Shown: positions 10,453-46,660 of the stretch, piece after piece | Layout of the letters: every line of letters starts with the position of its first letter | How positions within the stretch are numbered: position 1 is the first letter of the stretch | Assembly: GCF_947496195.1 (NCBI RefSeq) | Contig: NZ_CANMBY010000001.1 | Coordinates: 434,001 to 498,000, forward strand | DNA length: 64,000 nt | Source of the DNA: an uncultured Polaribacter sp. | GTDB lineage: Bacteria > Bacteroidota > Bacteroidia > Flavobacteriales > Flavobacteriaceae | Direction: 5' to 3' | Made by a program: the position numbers and the translations under genes | Notes under the pieces: model-generated | What the model was told of the DNA's origin: nothing | The model's database searches: none | What the model saw: the letters and a program-made list of their open reading frames with translations, nothing else

Positions 10453-10881
10453 ATGAGCTTAAAAAACACCATAGTTGCATCTCTATTATTTTGTTTTGTT
10501 TTAGTAGGATGTAAAACAGAAGAGAAAAAAGAATTAAAAAAAGAAAATGTCTCTTTAGCCATTTCTGGTATGACATGTGAAATAGGTTGTGCAAAAACCA
10601 TACAATCTAAATTATCTAAAAAAGAAGGCGTAATAGATGCTAAAGTTATTTTTACAGATAGTATTGCCAATATTGAGTTTGATGCAAATACTGTAACTAA
10701 AAAAGAATTAATTGCTTTTGTAGATGGAATTGCAGGAGGAGATTTATACAAAGCATCAGAAACTACTAAAAAAACTCATGAATGCACTAAAGAATGTAAA
10801 GAAAAGTGTGAGTTAAAAGAAGGTAAAAAAGAATGCAAAGAGAATTGTACAATGGCTTGTTGTAAAGACAAAAAAGCTTAA
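10453..10881 (+). CDS. Lipoprotein with heavy-metal-associated domain and Cys-rich tail
   Basis: 142 residues. A lipobox LVGC at 17-20 predicts a lipid anchor on C20. Residues 33-98 are an HMA-like fold, but the metal loop reads MTCEIGC, so the Cys pair is C42 and C46 (CxxxC) and not the standard CxxC. The tail (about 108-142) has nine Cys and one His in a Lys/Glu-rich sequence ending CTMACCKDKKA, resembling a metallothionein-like metal sink. A role in copper or other soft-metal binding in the periplasm is likely. A TAAATTTG -7 element lies at 10420-10427. Confidence 0.85.
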   Translation: MSLKNTIVASLLFCFVLVGCKTEEKKELKKENVSLAISGMTCEIGCAKTIQSKLSKKEGVIDAKVIFTDSIANIEFDANTVTKKELIAFVDGIAGGDLYKASETTKKTHECTKECKEKCELKEGKKECKENCTMACCKDKKA

Positions 10882-10900
10882 TCAAAGTTTATCAAATAAA

Positions 10901-10930
10901 AAAAGCAGGCTATACAGCCTGCTTTTTTTT
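10901..10930. terminator. Bidirectional terminator
   Basis: The stem AGCAGGCT (10904-10911), loop ATAC, and AGCCTGCT (10916-10923) is flanked by A-runs on the left and T-runs on the right. It serves the HMA gene (plus) and the beta-helix lipoprotein gene (minus). Confidence 0.88.
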
Positions 10931-10946
10931 ATTTAGTAATAATATC

Positions 10947-12122
10947 TTACTTTCTAGTCCAATTTGCTCCCCAAGTAGCATAATCAGTTCCAGTTAACGT
11001 ATTATCTTCTGTGTAGAAATCTGCATCAGTAAAAGTAGATCCAGTATCGTTTTTCAACTTAACATTAACATCAGCAAAAATTACTGAGTTTACATTTAAA
11101 TCACCACTTAATACTCCAGCACCAGTTGGATTATCTCCTTGGTCTCCATCTAAATCAAAACCTTCGTTAAAACCTTCTATCCAAACATTAGTAAATATAC
11201 CTTGAGTACCAGCTCTTAAACGAATTGCTTCATTACCTGTACCAGAACCTAAGCCAATAATTGTTAAATTAGTTACAGTTGGTTTAGAGAAATATTTAGG
11301 ATTAGAATTGTTACCTATGTCTGTATTGTAACCATCAGCTTCAATACCTTTATCATGATCTGGACCATGCTTTACATATGCATCAGTAATTGTACCTGTG
11401 TAACCTTCTGTCCAGTCTATAGAATCATCTTGAGCATTAACAACAGAAACATTGCTTACATTTACTGTACCTCCAAAAAACTCAACACCATCGTCATTAC
11501 CTTCAAACATTTGTATGTGCTCTATAACCGTTTTATTTCCAACTCCGTAAAAAGAGAAACCATTATTTTCTGATTGACCATCTGCTTTACCTCCTGAATA
11601 TTCAACTCTTACGTAACGTAAAATACCAGAATTATCATCAGCTGCAGTACCACCATAAGGTAGGTTAGCAATTTCTGAAGTAGAAGTTGATGTCCCTGAA
11701 ACAGAGTTTATAGGAGCTTTACCTAATAAAATTAAACCTCCCCAATCACCAGCATTTGGTGTTGTTGCAGAAGAAGTAAAAATAATTGGCTGAGAAGAAG
11801 TACCTTCTGCCATAATTTTTGCACCTTGAGCAATAGCTAAATACACATCTGCACCAGTTGCAGAGGCCTTAATAACAGTACCTGCAGGGATAGTTAATGT
11901 TGTACCAGTCTCAAAAATTGTAGGACCAGTTAAAATATATTCTTTTGTTGCATCTAAAGTTAAATCTGTTGTGTAATTACCATTAATTTCGATAGCATTA
12001 CCTGTTGTTGGAGCTCCTCCATTTCCATCTATATTAATTACAATATCAGAAGTTCCATCTTCTCCACAAGAAGTGAATAATAATACTGATAAAAATACTA
12101 TTGATAAAATTTTAGTTTTCAT
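10947..12122 (-). CDS. Beta-helix-like outer-membrane lipoprotein paired with TonB receptor
   Basis: 391 residues. The signal peptide ends in LLFTSC, predicting a lipid anchor at C19. The body is rich in Gly, Asn, Thr and Asp with short repeated strands (TIPAGTVIKA, GDWGGLILLG, YVRVEYSGGK, GNDDGVEFFGG, AQDDSIDWTEG), which suggests a right-handed beta-helix. No catalytic motif is recognised. It lies 40 bases downstream of a TonB receptor in the same direction, so it is probably the surface partner of that receptor, in the place SusD-like proteins take elsewhere. The link to phosphate comes from the neighbouring PiT gene and is inference. Confidence 0.85.
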   Translation of the reverse strand: MKTKILSIVFLSVLLFTSCGEDGTSDIVINIDGNGGAPTTGNAIEINGNYTTDLTLDATKEYILTGPTIFETGTTLTIPAGTVIKASATGADVYLAIAQGAKIMAEGTSSQPIIFTSSATTPNAGDWGGLILLGKAPINSVSGTSTSTSEIANLPYGGTAADDNSGILRYVRVEYSGGKADGQSENNGFSFYGVGNKTVIEHIQMFEGNDDGVEFFGGTVNVSNVSVVNAQDDSIDWTEGYTGTITDAYVKHGPDHDKGIEADGYNTDIGNNSNPKYFSKPTVTNLTIIGLGSGTGNEAIRLRAGTQGIFTNVWIEGFNEGFDLDGDQGDNPTGAGVLSGDLNVNSVIFADVNVKLKNDTGSTFTDADFYTEDNTLTGTDYATWGANWTRK

Positions 12123-12162
12123 TTTTTTTAATTTTATAATGTTTCGTTTAATTTAGTTTTTA

Positions 12163-14967
12163 TTAAAAATTATATTTGAAGCTTAAGCTTATATTCATTC
12201 CTATTTGAAATTCTGATAAAGTAACATCACCAATTGGTGTCCCTTCTCTTACTCTAGTAATTTTTGGATCTAATAAGTTTTGTGCTTTTAAATTTAGTTC
12301 TGTGTTTTCTCCAAATTTATTTTTCCAAATAAAATCTAAAGTTGGTACACCTTTTTCTATGATATTACCAATTTGACCAGAACCTAAAGCGTCTATTCTG
12401 TCTGAGAAATAAGAAAATACTAATGAAGCTACTGGCTTGTAGTTTTCCCACTTTGTAGGGCTATAATTTATATTTGCATTCATTAAAAATGGAGATGCAC
12501 CTTGTAATTGATCTGTAGGCCTGTTAAAAGAAGTATCAAATAATTGACCATCAATATTACTATACAAATCTTGCTCAGTGTGCATATAGGTTACATTAAA
12601 CCCTGCAGATAATTGGGTATCATCATCTTCGTTTTTAATTAAGTTTTTTCTTGCCTCTAATTCAATACCAATAACCTCTGCTTTATCACCTGTTCTAAAA
12701 TAACGTTGTGTACCTGTTGCATCGTTTGCAATTACTAAGTTTACTGGGTTGTTTATTTGTTTTGCAAACATACTTACAGAGAATAATTCATCTCTTGTCA
12801 TAAACCATTCGTATTTAAAATCAATGTTAAATACTTTAGAAAAAGATGGATCGTTTAATAAGTCTGGGTTACCACCTATTCTTTGTCCAACTGCTTCATA
12901 AACAAATGGTGCAACTTCTTTAAATTCTGGTACAGAAACAGATTTACTAAATGTAAAACGTAAGTTTTGGTTTTCTTTTAAAGCGTATTTTATATTTAAA
13001 CTTGGTAAGAAAAAAGTTTCTGTTGCTTCTCTAAATCTTGGATCATTTGGATTAATATTAATTACATCATAATTAATTTCTTGATTAAATGCCTCTAATC
13101 GAATACCAGGCACAAAACTCCATTTTTCATTTAAGTTGTATACAGCAGAAACATAACCAGCATTAACTTTTAATTCTCCAGTATAGGTGTTTTCATTTGC
13201 TCCAGGAAAATTAGTTGTTGGTAATTCACCAGGTGATAATGAGTTAAAAACTTCTGTATTATATAATCTTCCAAAATTTTGTAAATTAAAAACTGCATCT
13301 AAGTTAGTGATATCATCTACCTCTAATCTTGGAGTTAAAAAGTCATACCCATATCTAATATTTTCAAATTCACGAGTTTTAACTCTTCCATTATAACCAT
13401 AGTTTAATGTTAATTTATCTGATACAATGTGAGCTAAATTAATTCTGCTATTTGTTTCTCTATCAATAATTTTTTGAAAATATCTTTGATTATCAAAAAC
13501 TGTATTGCTAAAAAACGAAGGCTTTGTGTTTGGATCATTATCTAATGCAAACTGATAGTTCTCAAAACTAAATCTTCTTCTATCTGGTTCATGTGCAAAA
13601 ACATTATTATGACCAATTCCCCATGTAAGTGTATATTTAGCATCTTCTTCATCTGCTGCATAAAACTTGTGTTCTCCCATTAATTGGTTAACAAAAATTA
13701 AATCTTGATTAAATTGGATGTTTTGTTGAAAAAATCCTCTATCTGTATCTATAAAAGCATCTCTATTTCTACCTTTTCCTTCAGTTCCATAAAATCCAGC
13801 CATATCAGATGAACTATTTAAGAACATTGAGAAATACTTTAATTTATGATCATCATTAACCTTATAAATAGCATTACCCATTACTGTTGTTGCTGTAGTA
13901 TATTCAAACTCTTGAGAGTTAGGATATTCAATTTTAAAAACATTAGGATAATCTACTAAAGGACCTTCTCTGTATTGGTAAGAATTTTGAAAAGATGCTG
14001 TACCATACAAACTCAACCTTGAATCATCTTTAAAATCCCAAGATTTACCACCAGTTAAACCTATATTTAAGTTTATTGGTGCTGCACCATTTTCTGGATC
14101 TACTCCATGAGAAAGTATAACTGCAAAAGGATTATGTTCATATCTTCTGTAAAAACCAACATGTCCTGTACCTTCACTTTTCTTAAAATTCTTTCCAGCA
14201 GCTCTTGTGTTTACTCCTGTTCCAACAGAAACATCAAAAAAGCCATCTCCTTTATAATCTTTAGAAGTAATATTTACATTACCTGCAGCAAAATCACCAT
14301 AAAATTCTGATGAATAGGCTTTACTTATAGATACACTTTGAATTACTTCTGAAGGAAATAATGATAAGTCTATATTCTTTTTATTTACATCATTAGAAGG
14401 TAATGATAAACCATTTAAAGTAGTGTTTAAATATCTATCCCCTAATCCTCTAACATAAACATTACTTGATCCTTCTTGTTTAGATACACCAGAAATTTTA
14501 GAAACTGCACCTGCAGCATCACTTACCCCTTTTTCTGCTAATTCTTGTGCACCTATACTTTCTTTAATTACAGTTGCTTTCTTCTGTTCTAATAATAAAG
14601 CACTTTTTTTCTCTTTACTAGTTGTTGTTTTTATAACAATATCATCTAAAGCAACTCCTTCTTCTGCTGCTAAAACTTGATTAATAGTAATCGTTTGACC
14701 ATCTGTTATTGTAAAAGTTTTTTCTACAGTTTTATATCCTAAAAAACTAAAAACAATTGTATGAGTACCAGCTGGAACTTTAATTGTGTAATTACCATCA
14801 AAATCTGTAGTACCTCCATTAGTGGTTCCTTTAATAAGAATATTAGCAAATGGTAGAGGCTCGTTATTTGACTCTTTGTCTGTTAATGTACCTGTTACAG
14901 TTGCTGTATTTTGAGCAATTGTTAATTGACTAACAATAAAAAAAGCTATAAATAGAATTCGTTTCAT
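12163..14967 (-). CDS. TonB-dependent outer-membrane receptor 1
   Basis: 934 residues. The signal peptide is MKRILFIAFFIVSQLTIAQ. Residues about 22-108 are a carboxypeptidase-regulatory-like domain (TGTLTDKESN, GGTTDFDGNYTIKVPAGTHT). The plug follows (about 120-235) with the typical VYVRGLGDRYLNTTLNGLSLPS, quoted in part as YVRGLGDRY. The C-terminal barrel ends SLSFKYNF, an aromatic last residue as in outer-membrane proteins. No SusD gene is adjacent; a beta-helix lipoprotein follows. Upstream lie two TAATTTTG -7 elements, each preceded by a CTTAACA-type repeat pair. The divergent neighbour is a phosphate transporter. Confidence 0.94.
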   Translation of the reverse strand: MKRILFIAFFIVSQLTIAQNTATVTGTLTDKESNNEPLPFANILIKGTTNGGTTDFDGNYTIKVPAGTHTIVFSFLGYKTVEKTFTITDGQTITINQVLAAEEGVALDDIVIKTTTSKEKKSALLLEQKKATVIKESIGAQELAEKGVSDAAGAVSKISGVSKQEGSSNVYVRGLGDRYLNTTLNGLSLPSNDVNKKNIDLSLFPSEVIQSVSISKAYSSEFYGDFAAGNVNITSKDYKGDGFFDVSVGTGVNTRAAGKNFKKSEGTGHVGFYRRYEHNPFAVILSHGVDPENGAAPINLNIGLTGGKSWDFKDDSRLSLYGTASFQNSYQYREGPLVDYPNVFKIEYPNSQEFEYTTATTVMGNAIYKVNDDHKLKYFSMFLNSSSDMAGFYGTEGKGRNRDAFIDTDRGFFQQNIQFNQDLIFVNQLMGEHKFYAADEEDAKYTLTWGIGHNNVFAHEPDRRRFSFENYQFALDNDPNTKPSFFSNTVFDNQRYFQKIIDRETNSRINLAHIVSDKLTLNYGYNGRVKTREFENIRYGYDFLTPRLEVDDITNLDAVFNLQNFGRLYNTEVFNSLSPGELPTTNFPGANENTYTGELKVNAGYVSAVYNLNEKWSFVPGIRLEAFNQEINYDVININPNDPRFREATETFFLPSLNIKYALKENQNLRFTFSKSVSVPEFKEVAPFVYEAVGQRIGGNPDLLNDPSFSKVFNIDFKYEWFMTRDELFSVSMFAKQINNPVNLVIANDATGTQRYFRTGDKAEVIGIELEARKNLIKNEDDDTQLSAGFNVTYMHTEQDLYSNIDGQLFDTSFNRPTDQLQGASPFLMNANINYSPTKWENYKPVASLVFSYFSDRIDALGSGQIGNIIEKGVPTLDFIWKNKFGENTELNLKAQNLLDPKITRVREGTPIGDVTLSEFQIGMNISLSFKYNF

Positions 14968-14989
14968 TTCTAAGTTTAAATTTCTGTTG

Positions 14990-14997
14990 CAAAATTA
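14990..14997 (-). promoter_or_regulatory. Candidate -7 element of TonB receptor 1 (proximal)
   Basis: The minus strand reads TAATTTTG, an exact TAnnTTTG match 22 bases before the ATG, with no -33 TTG. The repeat pair at 15008-15025 lies 10 bases upstream and could replace the -33 element, as activator boxes do. Confidence 0.5.
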
Positions 14998-15007
14998 CAG
15001 TCATGTC

Positions 15008-15025
15008 TGTAAAGTCTATGTTAGC
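15008..15025 (-). promoter_or_regulatory. Candidate Pho-box-like repeat pair, degenerate (TonB receptor 1, proximal)
   Basis: In the gene's orientation: GCTAACA, TAGA, CTTTACA, two related 7-base units with an 11-base period, 41 bases before the ATG. It is weaker than the distal pair. A dyad TTACAG-N6-CTGTAA (14995-15012) overlaps its edge and the -7 element. Confidence 0.4.
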
Positions 15026-15026
15026 T

Positions 15027-15034
15027 CAAAATTA
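15027..15034 (-). promoter_or_regulatory. Candidate -7 element of TonB receptor 1 (distal)
   Basis: A second TAATTTTG on the minus strand, 17 bases downstream of the repeat pair at 15052-15069. Together with the proximal one it suggests tandem promoters. Confidence 0.45.
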
Positions 15035-15051
15035 TGCTTGGGTTATTAGCT

Positions 15052-15069
15052 TGTTAAGAAATTGTTACC
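15052..15069 (-). promoter_or_regulatory. Candidate Pho-box-like repeat pair (TonB receptor 1, distal)
   Basis: In the gene's orientation: GGTAACA, ATTT, CTTAACA. Two 7-base units with a 4-base spacer (11-base period), 85 bases before the ATG. It shares TAACA in both units with the sites at 15162, 32139 and 46559. Confidence 0.55.
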
Positions 15070-15161
15070 TGAAAATTCTATTTTTTTTTGATGTAAATGT
15101 CTTATTTTGCAATCCGTTAATAAGTGATTTTAAAATATTTGATATTAGATTCAATTAATTT

Positions 15162-15179
15162 CATAACATTAAGGTAACA
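15162..15179 (+). promoter_or_regulatory. Candidate Pho-box-like repeat pair upstream of the PiT gene
   Basis: CATAACA, TTAA, GGTAACA on the plus strand, an 11-base period. It ends 20 bases before the -7 element TAAATTTG at 15200-15207, the same gap as between the site at 46559-46576 and its nearest -7-like element. Confidence 0.55.
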
Positions 15180-15199
15180 TTATCAATTTAGGTAGTCTT

Positions 15200-15207
15200 T
15201 AAATTTG
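15200..15207 (+). promoter_or_regulatory. -7 element of the PiT-PhoU gene
   Basis: TAAATTTG matches TAnnTTTG exactly. Transcription would begin near 15214, 12 bases before the ATG at 15226. There is no good -33 TTG; the repeat pair at 15162-15179 occupies the upstream space. Confidence 0.6.
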
Positions 15208-15225
15208 CCTAATAAATATTTATCA

Positions 15226-17469
15226 ATGGGAGATCCATATATTTTAATGCTAGTTGCACTAGCTATTTTAGCAATTGTAGATTTAGTAGTAGGTGTTAGT
15301 AATGATGCTGTTAACTTTTTAAATTCTGCAATTGGTTCTAAAGCAATATCAATTAGAAATATAATGATTATTGCTAGTGTTGGTGTGTTTTTTGGAGCTG
15401 TGTCTTCTAGTGGAATGATGGAGGTAGCAAGAAAAGGAATTTTTAATCCTAGCATGTTTATGTTTCAGGATGTGATGTACATTTTTATGGCTGTTATGAT
15501 TACAGACATTTTACTATTAGATGTATTTAATTCTTTTGGAATGCCTACTTCTACAACAGTATCTATTGTTTTTGAATTATTAGGGTCTGCTGTAGTAATT
15601 GCGCTTATAAAAATTACTCAAAATGATTCTGAAAGTTTTTCTGCAATTTGGGATTATATTAATTACAATACAGCAACAGATATAATACTTGGTATTTTAC
15701 TCTCTGTTATTGTTGCATTTACTGTAGGTGCTATAGTACAGTATTTTTCAAGACTTATTTATTCTTTTAATTTTGAAAAAAGACCATCTTATATAAATGC
15801 AATTTTTGGTGGATTTGCCCTAACTTCAATTACGTATTTTATTATAATAAAAGGTTTAAAAGGAACAGATTTTTATGATAATTTAAAAGGATTTTTAGAA
15901 GGAAACACACTACAAATTATTGCAATAAGTTTTTTAATCTGGTCTTTAGCCTCTTATTTACTTACAAAAATATTTAAGCTTAATATCTTAACTCTAATCA
16001 TTGGAGTTGGTACTTTTTCTTTAGCAATGGCCTTTGCTGGAAATGATTTAGTTAATTTTATAGGTGTGCCTATAGCAGCACTTAACTCATATGAAGCTTG
16101 GAATGTTTCTGGAGTAGACCCAGCTGCGTTTTCTATGGGTAGTTTAGCTAAAAAAGTACCTTCTAATATTTGGTTATTATTAATGGCTGGTGCAATAATG
16201 GTGATTACTTTATGGACATCTTCTAAAGCAAAATCTGTTATAGAAACAGGCATTAATTTATCTAGACAGGGTGAAGGTCATGAAAAATTTCAGCCTAATA
16301 ATGTTTCTAGAATTGTAGTTAGATCTGCAATGGTTTTAAATACTGGTATTAATTATATTATTCCATTAAAGGTACAAGATTTCATTAATGCTAAATTTGA
16401 AAAACCTACAATAAAACTCCCAAAAGATAAGACCTACGAAATGCCTGCTTTTGATTTAGTAAGAGCTTCTGTTAATTTAATTATGGCAAGTGTACTAATT
16501 TCTATAGCAACCTCTATGAAATTACCTTTATCTACTACTTATGTAACTTTTATGGTAGCTATGGGTACTTCTTTAGCTGATAGAGCTTGGGGTCGTGAAA
16601 GTGCAGTATATAGAGTTGCAGGAGTATTAAATGTTATTGGAGGTTGGTTTTTAACTGCAATTGTTGCATTTGTTGCTGCTGGTATTGTTGCTTATTTAAT
16701 TAATTTAAACATAGCTTTTATACCTATTCTATTAATAGTCGTGGCTTTTTTAATTACAAAAAACTCTATAGATCACAGAAAAAAAACTAATGAAGTAAAA
16801 AAGAAAAAGTTTGTTGAAAGATCTGAGCTAATTAATATTAATGGCGTTATCGAAGAAAGTTCTGATCATATTTCTGAAGTAGCTAACAGAATTAATAAAC
16901 TATATACACATGTAGTTAACGACTTAGCAAATCATGATTTAAATAAATTGCGAAAAACAGATAAACATGTAGAAAAGTTAAATGATGAAGTTGACAATCT
17001 TAAAGACAACGTTTTTTATTTTATTAAATCTTTAGAAGAAAGTTCTGTACAAGCAAGTAAATTTTATATTTCTGTTTTAGGTTATTTGCAAGATGCATCA
17101 CAATCTATTAGTTATATATCTAGAGCTAGTTTTAAGCATGTAAACAACAACCATAAAAACCTAAAAAAGGGACAGCTTAAAGATTTAAAGGAAATCAATA
17201 ATAAATTATCAGATATTTTAACAGATGTAAGTGCTGTTTTTAGTGAAAGAAATTTTGATAGTTTAGACAATATTTTACAGCAAAAATCTGAACTTTTAAT
17301 AAATGTTTCTGATTCTATAGAAAAACAAGTATCTAGAATTAGAGGTGATGAAACTAGTCCAAAAAATACTACCTTATATTTCAGTATTTTATTAGAAACT
17401 AAAGATTTAATTAAATCTTTAACTAGTATTTTAGAAACTTATGAAGAGTTTTATTTAAGTACTAAATAA
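15226..17469 (+). CDS. PiT-family inorganic phosphate transporter with PhoU-like C-terminal domain
   Basis: 747 residues from the ATG at 15226 (MGDPYILML). A TTG seven codons earlier lies inside the -7 element and is not credible. The two PiT signatures are GVSNDAVNFLNSAIGS near 25-40 and FAGNDLVNFIGVPIAALNS near 273-291, each in a set of membrane segments. From about residue 515 the protein is soluble, helical and charged (ISEVANRINKLYTHVVNDL and similar), resembling PhoU/DUF47 regulators of phosphate transport. Such fusions combine the carrier and its regulatory subunit. It faces TonB receptor 1 across a control region with Pho-box-like repeats. Confidence 0.93.
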   Translation: MGDPYILMLVALAILAIVDLVVGVSNDAVNFLNSAIGSKAISIRNIMIIASVGVFFGAVSSSGMMEVARKGIFNPSMFMFQDVMYIFMAVMITDILLLDVFNSFGMPTSTTVSIVFELLGSAVVIALIKITQNDSESFSAIWDYINYNTATDIILGILLSVIVAFTVGAIVQYFSRLIYSFNFEKRPSYINAIFGGFALTSITYFIIIKGLKGTDFYDNLKGFLEGNTLQIIAISFLIWSLASYLLTKIFKLNILTLIIGVGTFSLAMAFAGNDLVNFIGVPIAALNSYEAWNVSGVDPAAFSMGSLAKKVPSNIWLLLMAGAIMVITLWTSSKAKSVIETGINLSRQGEGHEKFQPNNVSRIVVRSAMVLNTGINYIIPLKVQDFINAKFEKPTIKLPKDKTYEMPAFDLVRASVNLIMASVLISIATSMKLPLSTTYVTFMVAMGTSLADRAWGRESAVYRVAGVLNVIGGWFLTAIVAFVAAGIVAYLINLNIAFIPILLIVVAFLITKNSIDHRKKTNEVKKKKFVERSELININGVIEESSDHISEVANRINKLYTHVVNDLANHDLNKLRKTDKHVEKLNDEVDNLKDNVFYFIKSLEESSVQASKFYISVLGYLQDASQSISYISRASFKHVNNNHKNLKKGQLKDLKEINNKLSDILTDVSAVFSERNFDSLDNILQQKSELLINVSDSIEKQVSRIRGDETSPKNTTLYFSILLETKDLIKSLTSILETYEEFYLSTK

Positions 17470-31186: not shown

Positions 31187-32059
31187 TTATTGTATTAAAT
31201 CTTTCATTTCACTTCTGTAAATAGATGCATTTTTTCCTGTAAATTCTTTAAATAGTTTATTAAAGTGAGAAAAATTATTAAAACCACATTCAAAACTAAT
31301 ATCTGTAATACTCATTGTACTTTCAGCTAACAGCTTAGTAGCGTGAACAACTCTATATTCATTTACAATTTTTGTAAATGTTTTACCTGTCGTTTTTTTA
31401 AAATATCTACAAAAAGCTGGTACAGTCATACTTACTAAATCTGAAACTTCATCTAAACTAATATGCTCTTTAAAGTTATCATTTATATGCTTGTATACAA
31501 CTTCAATTTTATTACTATCTTGATGTGTAGCTTCAAAAGCAAAACCATCTGCATTTAATAATGTATAATCGTCTGTTGTTGCTAAATCGTTTAATATCTC
31601 TATAAAAGAAGTAATTCTTGATGCCCCTTCTAAATCTACTAGTGCTTCTATTTTGGCACCAATTCTTCTTTTAATATCTATATTAAAACGAATTCCTTTT
31701 TTAGCTCTTTCAAATAAAGCGTCTATAGCAGCCATTTCAGGAATTTTAAAAAATTCTTTGCCTAAGAATTCTGGTAAAAACTGAATTAATGTTTCTGATC
31801 CGTTTGTCGTTAAACGATCTAAATATCCCATGTGTGGTAAATTAGAACCTATTAACACTAATTGACTATTATTAAAATAGCTAATATGATTACCTATATG
31901 TCTTTTTCCTTTTCCCTTATTTACATATACCAACTCTATCTCTGGATGAAAATGCCAAAAAGGAGTTATTGTTTTTAGAAATTTTTCATGTTTTTTTACC
32001 AACAATGAACTTCCAAAGTTTGGAGTAATTTTTTCTAGAGTAGGTTTTTTCTGTATCAT
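31187..32059 (-). CDS. AraC-family transcriptional regulator with N-terminal cupin
   Basis: 290 residues from the ATG at 32057-32059 (MIQKKPTLEK); the GTG six codons upstream lies in the -7 region. The N-terminal part (about 25-105, HFHPEIELVYVNKGKGKRHIG, quoted as HFHPEIELVYV) is an AraC-type cupin sensor. The C-terminal double helix-turn-helix is at about 188-288, with the signature ISFECGFNNFSHFNKLFKEF. Sugars or other small molecules are typical signals. A CTTAACA-N4-CTTAACA repeat pair lies 80 bases upstream of its start. Confidence 0.9.
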   Translation of the reverse strand: MIQKKPTLEKITPNFGSSLLVKKHEKFLKTITPFWHFHPEIELVYVNKGKGKRHIGNHISYFNNSQLVLIGSNLPHMGYLDRLTTNGSETLIQFLPEFLGKEFFKIPEMAAIDALFERAKKGIRFNIDIKRRIGAKIEALVDLEGASRITSFIEILNDLATTDDYTLLNADGFAFEATHQDSNKIEVVYKHINDNFKEHISLDEVSDLVSMTVPAFCRYFKKTTGKTFTKIVNEYRVVHATKLLAESTMSITDISFECGFNNFSHFNKLFKEFTGKNASIYRSEMKDLIQ

Positions 32060-32138
32060 TTTACAAAAATACAACACTAAGAAGTGGAATTGTGTATATA
32101 ATTATCAATATTGTGTGCTATTTTAACTTTAATGAAGA

Positions 32139-32156
32139 TGTTAAGCAATTGTTAAG
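32139..32156 (-). promoter_or_regulatory. Candidate Pho-box-like repeat pair upstream of the AraC gene
   Basis: On the minus strand CTTAACA, ATTG, CTTAACA: two identical 7-base units with an 11-base period, 80 bases before the AraC ATG. It could also act on the divergent plus-strand gene, but the orientation matches the other sites only for the AraC gene. Confidence 0.55.
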
Positions 32157-32186
32157 TTAATTTAGCATACAAATTTACCAATTATG

Positions 32187-43891: not shown

Positions 43892-46501
43892 TTAGAAATT
43901 ATATCTTACACTAGCATTCCAAGTTCTTCCTAAACCAAAGAAACCTCTGTTAGAAACATCAATTCCTCTATAAGTAGTAGAACCAGCATTTGCAAAGTTT
44001 GCAGTAGATAATTCAGAAATATATCTTCTATCTAAAACGTTGTTTACATTTACTCTGAAATCTAAAGATTTAGATTTATCTGAAGTTAAGTTTAATCTAT
44101 AAGATACACCTGAATCTAAGATACCATATTCTGGTAACTGAAGATTGTTCTTTCTTGCAGATACTCTAGCATATAATTGATCGTAAAATCTAAAGTCAGC
44201 ATCAAAGCTTAAACCTTCCATAATTCTATAATCTACACCTAAACCAGCAGTGAACTGTGCAGCATCTCCTACTTTACCTCCATCTACATCTACAACTGTA
44301 GGAGCTTGAATAACATTTCTGTCTTCATCTAATACATCTTGTATTAATTCTCCTGCATATGTCCAGTCACCTATAGAAGTAAATCCTTTTAATCTTAAGT
44401 CGTTAGTAATATCGTAGATGAAATCAAATTCTACACCCATATGATATTGAGCTTGACCAAATGTTCTAGTAATTGTAACAACACCAGTATTTGGATCTAC
44501 ATCTGTTGCTCCATCAACTCTATCTTTCCAAGTTGTGCTATATAAGTTAACATTAGCACTAAACTTATCTGATCTATAGTTATATCCTAACTCAATTCCT
44601 GTAATTTTTTCATTTTGAGAAATTGGGTTAATCGCATTTGTAAAGTTGTTAAAGATATTGTCATGATAAGGTTGACGAGAATAGAAACCTGTGTTAAAGT
44701 AAATGTTACTAGATTCAGATACTTTTAAACCTAAACCAGCTTTTACGTTATAACCAAAGTTACTTACTTTTTCTGAATCTTCGAATTGAGCTTGATAGTC
44801 ATATCTATCAAATCTTTGGTGCCATTGGTTAGAAACAGAACCTTGGAAAAATGCAGAAACTACATCATCTGAATACTCTAATTGAGTAAATAAACCTCCG
44901 TAAGAAATTCTCTCACTGTTGTCATAATCTATTCTTTGTGCTTCATCCATAGTGTTGAATGTTGCAGCCCATGGGTTAGCATTTCCACTTTCTGTAGCAG
45001 TAACAGAAACTACTGGACCAACTCTATTATGAGTATTGTCTCTTAAGCTTCTATCTTCTGTCCAAGAAGTTAAACCATGGAAGTTCTCTACTTGTCTAAA
45101 GTGAGTTCCATAGTAAGTTCTTAAATCAGCACCAATATTCCAAGTAATATTATCTGTTAATTTAGTTTCTAAGTTAGATACAGCACCATACCAGCTATGT
45201 AAGTTCATAGAAGCTCTTGTAATGTAAGCACTGTTACCAAAGTTTCCATCTCCACCAGTTGCAGCATTGTTTGCGTAAATTGCATCATAGTCAATTAAAC
45301 CATCAGCAGTTCTAACTCTTCTACCTCTGTTACCAGTTCCACCACCTCTACCAAAAGAAGCATATAATACTGTAGATAAGCTAGTAGCATCAGATATAGT
45401 ATAATCCCAGTTTAAGTTTAATACTGGTTTATGATAGAAGTTTCTTCTTTCTGTCATATATTCTCCTTGGTAAAAACCAAAGTTATTGTTGTATTTGAAA
45501 CCATTTTGTAAATAGCTAGAAATACTTTTTGTAAAGTTTTGATCATGCCATTGTGGAGCACCTGTAATCAAAAAGTTGAAATTATGAGTTTCGTTAGGCT
45601 TGTATCCAAAAGAAACGAAGTAAGTTTGACCTTGACCTCTAGTTCCATTGTTATAACCATTTCCTTGCCAGTGAGATAACATTACACTTGTACCCCATCC
45701 GTTTTCATTAACTCCAGTATTGTAAGATAACGTAGTTTTTAAATAACTATCGTTAGCTGTACCAGCATAAAAATAACCTCCTTCAGTTTTATCTGTAGTT
45801 TTAGTTACAAAGTTCATAGTACCACCAACAGAAGATATTGCTAATTTAGAAGCACCTAAACCTCTCTGAATTTGTACTGCACTTGCAATATCATTTACTC
45901 CAGACCAGTTAGACCAGTACATTCTTCCATCTTCCATACCATTAATTGGCTGACCATTTAATAAGAAAGCTGTGTTAGTTTGATCGAAACCACGAACAGA
46001 AATTCTAGAATCTCCAAAACCACCTGCTTGTCCAGCAACATAAATAGAAGGAGTGTTAACTAATGTCATAGTAACATCTTGTGTACCTACTTTCTTCTGA
46101 ATCTCAGCAGCTTTAATTGTAGATACTGCAACAGGAGTCTTTCTACCACCAGATAAATCGATTACCCCTTTACCAATAATAACTACCTCTTCTAAAGAGT
46201 TTTCATCTTCTAATAATTTAATAGTTCCTAAGTTAGTTTTAGAACTATTGTAAGAAATTTCTTTAGTTCTAAATCCTAAATAAGAAATTACAAGAACACC
46301 AGAATTCTTTGAAGTTGTAATAGAAAAATTACCGTCAAAATCAGTTTCTGTACCGTTTTTAGTACCTTTTTCTAAAATACTAGCTCCAGGTAATGGTTGA
46401 TTTGCGTTATCAACAATAATACCTGTAATTTTAGTTTGACCTAATACAGTAGCAGCTACAAAAAATAAAGCTACAAAAAGGAAATTTTTAAAATTTTTCA
46501 T
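43892..46501 (-). CDS. TonB-dependent outer-membrane receptor 2
   Basis: 869 residues. The signal peptide ends near Gln22 (ATVLGQ). A carboxypeptidase-regulatory-like domain spans about 23-110 (NANQPLPGASILEKGTKNGT). The plug is about 120-240 with RISVRGFDQTNTAFLLNGQP, and the barrel ends NASVRYNF. Neither a SusD-like nor a beta-helix lipoprotein gene adjoins it. A perfect CTTAACA-N4-CTTAACA pair lies 58 bases upstream of its ATG and matches the sites at TonB receptor 1, so common control is likely. The substrate is unknown. Confidence 0.94.
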   Translation of the reverse strand: MKNFKNFLFVALFFVAATVLGQTKITGIIVDNANQPLPGASILEKGTKNGTETDFDGNFSITTSKNSGVLVISYLGFRTKEISYNSSKTNLGTIKLLEDENSLEEVVIIGKGVIDLSGGRKTPVAVSTIKAAEIQKKVGTQDVTMTLVNTPSIYVAGQAGGFGDSRISVRGFDQTNTAFLLNGQPINGMEDGRMYWSNWSGVNDIASAVQIQRGLGASKLAISSVGGTMNFVTKTTDKTEGGYFYAGTANDSYLKTTLSYNTGVNENGWGTSVMLSHWQGNGYNNGTRGQGQTYFVSFGYKPNETHNFNFLITGAPQWHDQNFTKSISSYLQNGFKYNNNFGFYQGEYMTERRNFYHKPVLNLNWDYTISDATSLSTVLYASFGRGGGTGNRGRRVRTADGLIDYDAIYANNAATGGDGNFGNSAYITRASMNLHSWYGAVSNLETKLTDNITWNIGADLRTYYGTHFRQVENFHGLTSWTEDRSLRDNTHNRVGPVVSVTATESGNANPWAATFNTMDEAQRIDYDNSERISYGGLFTQLEYSDDVVSAFFQGSVSNQWHQRFDRYDYQAQFEDSEKVSNFGYNVKAGLGLKVSESSNIYFNTGFYSRQPYHDNIFNNFTNAINPISQNEKITGIELGYNYRSDKFSANVNLYSTTWKDRVDGATDVDPNTGVVTITRTFGQAQYHMGVEFDFIYDITNDLRLKGFTSIGDWTYAGELIQDVLDEDRNVIQAPTVVDVDGGKVGDAAQFTAGLGVDYRIMEGLSFDADFRFYDQLYARVSARKNNLQLPEYGILDSGVSYRLNLTSDKSKSLDFRVNVNNVLDRRYISELSTANFANAGSTTYRGIDVSNRGFFGLGRTWNASVRYNF

Positions 46502-46558
46502 TGTTTAATTTTAAGTTAATTAATGTTTTGCAAAATTCTTGCTTTTACATCGTTGGTT

Positions 46559-46576
46559 TGTTAAGTTAATGTTAAG
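46559..46576 (-). promoter_or_regulatory. Candidate Pho-box-like repeat pair upstream of TonB receptor 2
   Basis: In the gene's orientation CTTAACA, TTAA, CTTAACA, two identical 7-base units with an 11-base period. It ends 20 bases before GAATTTTG (46538-46531), a one-off match to the -7 consensus. This is the best example of the repeat in the window. Confidence 0.6.
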
Positions 46577-46660
46577 TTTTAACAAGAATTTAAGACCCTT
46601 AAAATTACAAAAAAGAGATTTACTTATTAATTATCAAATACTTACATATAAACATAGTTG

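Follow-up and report, generated by a model that had tools for sequence, protein, structure and literature searches.

Why a TonB-dependent receptor and a surface lipoprotein should face an inner membrane phosphate carrier across a short shared gap, and what such an outer membrane pair might take up, is the question raised by this locus. In the window (the whole stretch of DNA analyzed, 64,000 nucleotides, from a Flavobacteriaceae genome of 2.96 Mb), the lipoprotein gene (10947 to 12122, minus strand) lies 40 bases downstream of the receptor gene (12163 to 14967, minus strand), and the gene for a PiT-family carrier (15226 to 17469, plus strand) is divergent from both. All three components named in the original prediction were thus found in place. 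The divergent gap between receptor and carrier, 14968 to 15225, measures exactly 258 bases, taking the ATG at 15226 as the carrier start; the TTG at 15205 given by the ORF caller merely opens a longer frame. On the other side, a small HMA-domain lipoprotein (10453 to 10881, plus strand; PF00403) with a cysteine-rich tail converges on the pair, and its position, kept in relatives, marks a conserved genus-level site. A hairpin with A/T tails (10897 to 10929), read directly in the sequence between the convergent genes, is probably their shared terminator. The nearest named loci sharing the window layout are from Polaribacter (L164).

The receptor (934 amino acids) carries CarboxypepD_reg (PF13715), Plug (PF07715), and TonB barrel (PF00593) domains. 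Its score against the SusC/RagA model TIGR04056 was 60.9 bits, far below the cut-off of 368, and no SusD gene was found beside it, the neighboring open reading frames being the beta-helix lipoprotein, the HMA protein, and PiT. A SusCD system was rejected on both counts, in agreement with the prediction that the receptor has no SusCD-type partner. The locus resembles SusCD, PusCD, and RagAB in that a TonB receptor and a surface lipoprotein are produced as a pair; it differs from them in the receptor score and in the lipoprotein, which has a beta-helix instead of the SusD fold.

The signal peptide of the lipoprotein (391 amino acids) ends in LLFTSC, a lipobox whose Cys19 is invariant across the 49 rows of the family alignment. 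The AlphaFold model (pLDDT 89.7) is a right-handed beta-helix. Searches of Pfam, NCBIfam, and PDB with the single sequence, and of Pfam and PDB with the family alignment, gave no credible match. The fold reached Z values of 20 to 23 against alginate epimerases, polygalacturonases, and phage tailspikes, and the invariant residues are mostly acidic (D163, E185, D210, D211, E214, D232, D233, D236, and E261) and stand about one helical turn apart, which resembles glycosidase sites and suggests a metal-loaded or catalytic groove. The lipoprotein could accordingly be a surface enzyme or binder of polysaccharides, similar to polygalacturonase or pectate lyase, that frees phosphorus tied to glycans, with the receptor importing the product and the link to PiT reduced to shared regulation, as was put forward for the related proteins FI and FII (PMC8115612). 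We consider this unlikely. The structural matches were tied over many unrelated beta-helices in the VIA-align table, so that no single closest family emerged, and Foldseek returned no beta-helix match under E 1e-3; the likeness to GH28 polygalacturonases and pectate lyases concerns a fold common to many beta-helices. The 49-row alignment contains no invariant histidine or lysine, no SusD lies nearby, and no carbohydrate-enzyme gene recurs in the neighborhoods, where unlabeled neighbors were scanned in part. In many relatives (L083 to L094), two or three homologous copies follow one another within a single lipoprotein (about 740 or 1,000 amino acids).

The carrier (747 amino acids) scored 109.6 bits against the PHO4 domain PF01384 (cut-off 33.7). 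The model of its last 229 residues (519 to 747; 16780 to 17466, plus strand; pLDDT 87.1) matches the solved PhoU structure 4q25 (Foldseek E 6.9e-5, TM 0.72/0.78). No match to PhoU was obtained at the sequence level, including a sequence profile against three PhoU proteins; since sequence profiles miss the domain, its identity was settled by the fold, and the predicted fusion of PiT to a PhoU-like domain was borne out in this way. PitA-type carriers share the PF01384 domain and PhoU the C-terminal fold, but the window protein joins both in one polypeptide. Full-length matches were present in nearly all Flavobacteriaceae tested. One PiT locus was detected in the genome and no PstB scored above the curated family cut-off, which 13 of 14 control genomes exceed; most phosphate therefore probably enters the cell through PiT.

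The gap holds Pho-box-like repeats in both directions, as predicted. Toward the receptor, six consecutive 11-bp repeats (15003 to 15068, minus strand; GTAACA, TTAACA, ATAACC, ATAATT, CTAACA, and TTTACA) differ from 1,000 Markov shuffles with P < 0.001; a box is also conserved before the receptors of relatives. Toward PiT, two repeats, ATAACATTAAG GTAACATTATC (15163 to 15184, plus strand), form the best match in the 64-kb window (25.6 bits) to a matrix built from sites in other genomes without the window; the receptor box ranks fourth. The core of the box agrees with TTTAACA, which DAP-seq gave as the motif core for PhoP of the flavobacterium Riemerella (PMC9603813). When a box was defined as agreement with TAACA-N6-TAACA at 9 or all 10 of its fixed positions, with an exact 11-bp period, in a sample of 40 + 40 neighborhoods from genomes of relatives plus 80 loci with record titles, it was found upstream of 96% of PiT/OprP genes and, less uniformly, 72% of receptors, compared to 6% of other genes, and in the gap shared with receptors for 83% of phoB genes. 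Spacings of 9, 10, 12, and 13 gave few matches in the same sample. In genus genomes added later, all 13 PiT loci had the box between −69 and −75, and none of 137 other genes had one at ≥15 bits. The bare pattern was not enriched genome-wide (23 matches versus 24 for the reversed control), so the case for the box rests on conservation across genomes and not on rarity. Several other box matches in the genome fall within genes and were dropped. By this comparison the repeats are real Pho boxes, with predicted control by PhoB. A literature search that covered few subscription journals found no description of such boxes together with TonB receptors in Bacteroidetes.

Two other genes of the window showed strong matches. 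The second-best Pho box (46556 to 46577, minus strand; 19.4 bits) lies 55 bases upstream of a second TonB receptor of 869 amino acids (43892 to 46501, minus strand), which is likely another phosphate-regulated receptor. A strong match of 18.6 bits (32136 to 32157, minus strand) stands immediately upstream of a gene for an AraC-type regulator (31187 to 32077, minus strand).

Lipoprotein homologs were detected in 133 of 149 Flavobacteriaceae genomes and 54 of 58 genomes of the genus, and in 152 of 156 lipoprotein loci the immediate neighbor on that strand encodes a TonB receptor. The original prediction would have been undermined by a pair located mostly away from phosphate genes; instead, PiT or PhoB was found no more than 12 kb away in 92 of the 119 listed lipoprotein loci, compared to a chance expectation of about 1.5% (two 24-kb targets in a 3.3-Mb genome). 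Two layouts recur. In the first, the order is receptor, lipoprotein, OprP, in some cases PstSCAB-PhoU, and PiT. In the second, PhoR-PhoB is divergent from receptor and lipoprotein, as in Flavobacterium hibernum (L141), F. glycines (L140), F. potami (L154), and F. hercynium (L162). The anticipated conservation of the three-gene block therefore held in part: the context of pair and PiT recurs, but PiT is one of two contexts, the other being phoB-phoR. In Proteobacteria, the family was found in 30 of 299 genomes. Of 20 loci inspected, 19 have a receptor next to the lipoprotein, and candidate type II secretion genes, recognized by motif only, lie beside the pair in three of them (L278, L283, and L288).

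Further genes accompany these layouts. In most OprP-PiT layouts, an HD-domain (dGTPase-like) gene is kept divergent from the receptor (L045, L043, L048, and others), and a small MORN-repeat protein is encoded on the opposite strand between lipoprotein and porin. In the genome of the window, phoB (G000:C1:1104889-1105569; L103) faces a secreted protein of 724 amino acids that bears a Por secretion tail and stands where relatives commonly have the receptor-lipoprotein pair; the gap there holds a weaker box.

An accidental divergence of PiT and the receptor pair could draw on the bare box pattern being no commoner than its reversed control. It is extremely improbable and was rejected: the counts refute it, with neighborhood and box position conserved across genus, family, and phylum. 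The conserved context and the conserved Pho boxes together strongly support a link to phosphate and a joint regulation of the outer and inner membrane components.

The form in which phosphorus crosses the outer membrane is a separate matter. Import of free inorganic phosphate by the receptor pair, as the title of the original prediction had it, would suit the fixed neighborhood with PiT and a porin of the OprP type, joined in some genomes by PstSCAB, as well as a genome in which PstB stays below the cut-off. Against it, a porin of the phosphate-selective type is often encoded in the same cluster of relatives, and phosphate passes porins at most concentrations. In addition, with invariant residues that are acidic, direct binding of free phosphate is unlikely to suit the lipoprotein unless metal ions are bound. 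Free phosphate as the imported ligand thus appears doubtful, and an organic or polymer-bound phosphorus source is more likely.

The lipoprotein family, which the original prediction took to be undescribed, is in fact known. ElpS (CC0170) of Caulobacter crescentus is a phosphate-starvation surface lipoprotein whose gene adjoins that of the TonB receptor CC0171 (PMC2996285), and the PhoB regulon of Caulobacter includes the ElpS-releasing type II secretion system and several TonB receptors (PMC11208175). The proteins FI, FII, and FIII of F. johnsoniae, related to ElpS, are among the exoproteins most strongly induced by phosphate limitation, and FI and FII adjoin TonB receptors induced at low phosphate, with log2 fold changes of 8.0 for the receptor Fjoh_0545 and 9.9 for the lipoprotein Fjoh_0546 (PMC8115612). 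These homologs share low-phosphate induction and an outer membrane or extracellular location (PMC2996285, PMC8115612). The window lipoprotein belongs to this ElpS/FI-FII-FIII group of low-phosphate lipoproteins as judged from Flavobacterium and proteobacterial homologs, layout, and description; it has the lipobox, the adjacent TonB receptor, and homology to the types found beside phoBR and in Proteobacteria.

The window pair matches Fjoh_0546-Fjoh_0545 (FII) as a gene pair, but it adjoins PiT and not phoB; the published Fjoh_0543-0546 layout is PhoR-PhoB divergent from receptor-lipoprotein, an arrangement seen in all named Flavobacterium loci whose fetched flank extends there. The lipoproteins of these named loci are 36 to 43% identical to that of the window, and the F. 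hibernum genome has three family members, comparable to FI, FII, and FIII. As in ElpS-CC0171, the lipoprotein gene stands beside a TonB receptor gene, and the window homologs in Proteobacteria keep the ElpS order. In contrast to it, the window has no nearby type II secretion genes, the receptor gene comes first, and PiT lies across the gap.

Published work leans to organic phosphorus or to a phosphatase-helper role. In the latter, which has been proposed for ElpS, the lipoprotein would activate or display surface phosphatases with the receptor as its partner, and the receptor would not act as an importer. Overexpression of ElpS raises extracellular alkaline phosphatase, although no activity was seen for ElpS itself (PMC2996285), and the arrangement of the family in Proteobacteria with a receptor and type II secretion-like genes points the same way. 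Deletion of elpS left alkaline phosphatase activity unchanged (PMC2996285), so the role may be redundant. For the window pair, a helper role seems quite improbable, because the recurrent labeled neighbors are phosphate carriers and porins instead of phosphatases and the receptor has the complete plug and barrel of an importer. The family of the window lipoprotein is thus already known in kind; the adjacency to PiT, the box, and the exchange within the genus are additions, for which a literature search covering few subscription journals found no published report.

This exchange became apparent at a genus site recognizable in many genomes, where PiT, with or without OprP, is divergent from receptor and lipoprotein, flanked by patatin on the PiT side and by HMA, DMT, and M16 peptidase genes on the other. 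The lipoproteins of 21 genomes fell into four clusters of 9, 5, 4, and 3 with a median pairwise identity of 40%, and the receptors (median identity 41%) fell into exactly the same clusters; the genomes were picked by lipoprotein similarity rank, so the cluster number is no census, while the agreement of receptor with lipoprotein clusters was unselected. PiT from 14 of these loci had a median identity of 85%. Pairwise identities of lipoprotein and receptor were correlated with a Pearson coefficient of 0.96 and a Spearman coefficient of 0.41, most values lying in one low band, compared to 0.21 for lipoprotein and PiT. The four deep versions of receptor and lipoprotein travel together and mostly occupy one fixed site beside PiT (L319 to L338); in seven genus genomes (L322 to L326, L335, and L336), the pair is away from PiT, often beside another receptor.

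The matching clusters support a specific two-protein complex of receptor and lipoprotein. We infer that the versions arose by exchange and not by loss of old duplicates. Such a replacement of the pair at one site would resemble the allelic replacement at the rag locus. Tentatively, the pair may be an exchangeable cassette, swapped repeatedly and mostly at the site by PiT, for access to a new phosphorus compound or for escape from phages or toxins that use the receptor. The conserved acids would then line a groove loaded with metal and take hold of phosphorylated polymers.

From the computed gene content, folds, pairing, phosphate context, and boxes, the locus is probably a PhoB-controlled scavenging unit for phosphate starvation, an outer membrane pair for the capture and uptake of a phosphorus source that feeds PiT. 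Counting against this reading are the acidic invariant residues of the lipoprotein, the less uniform receptor boxes, the genus genomes with the pair away from PiT, and the unchanged phosphatase activity after elpS deletion. At low phosphate, PhoB would bind the 11-bp repeat boxes in the gap and switch on both directions, so that the receptor and its dedicated surface lipoprotein would be made as a pair. The lipoprotein would catch a phosphorus-bearing ligand, the receptor would move it into the periplasm with TonB energy, and PiT, with its own PhoU-fold domain, would carry the resulting phosphate over the inner membrane.

These results bear on how phosphorus is gathered in Flavobacteriaceae, many of which are without Pst. 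They provide a candidate PhoB box for the family and indicate that the ElpS/FII pair occurs almost throughout Flavobacteriaceae and is, in this genome, tied to the sole detected PiT. The swapping of the pair as a unit within the genus points to a specific complex, and a comparison of its versions could reveal the ligand.
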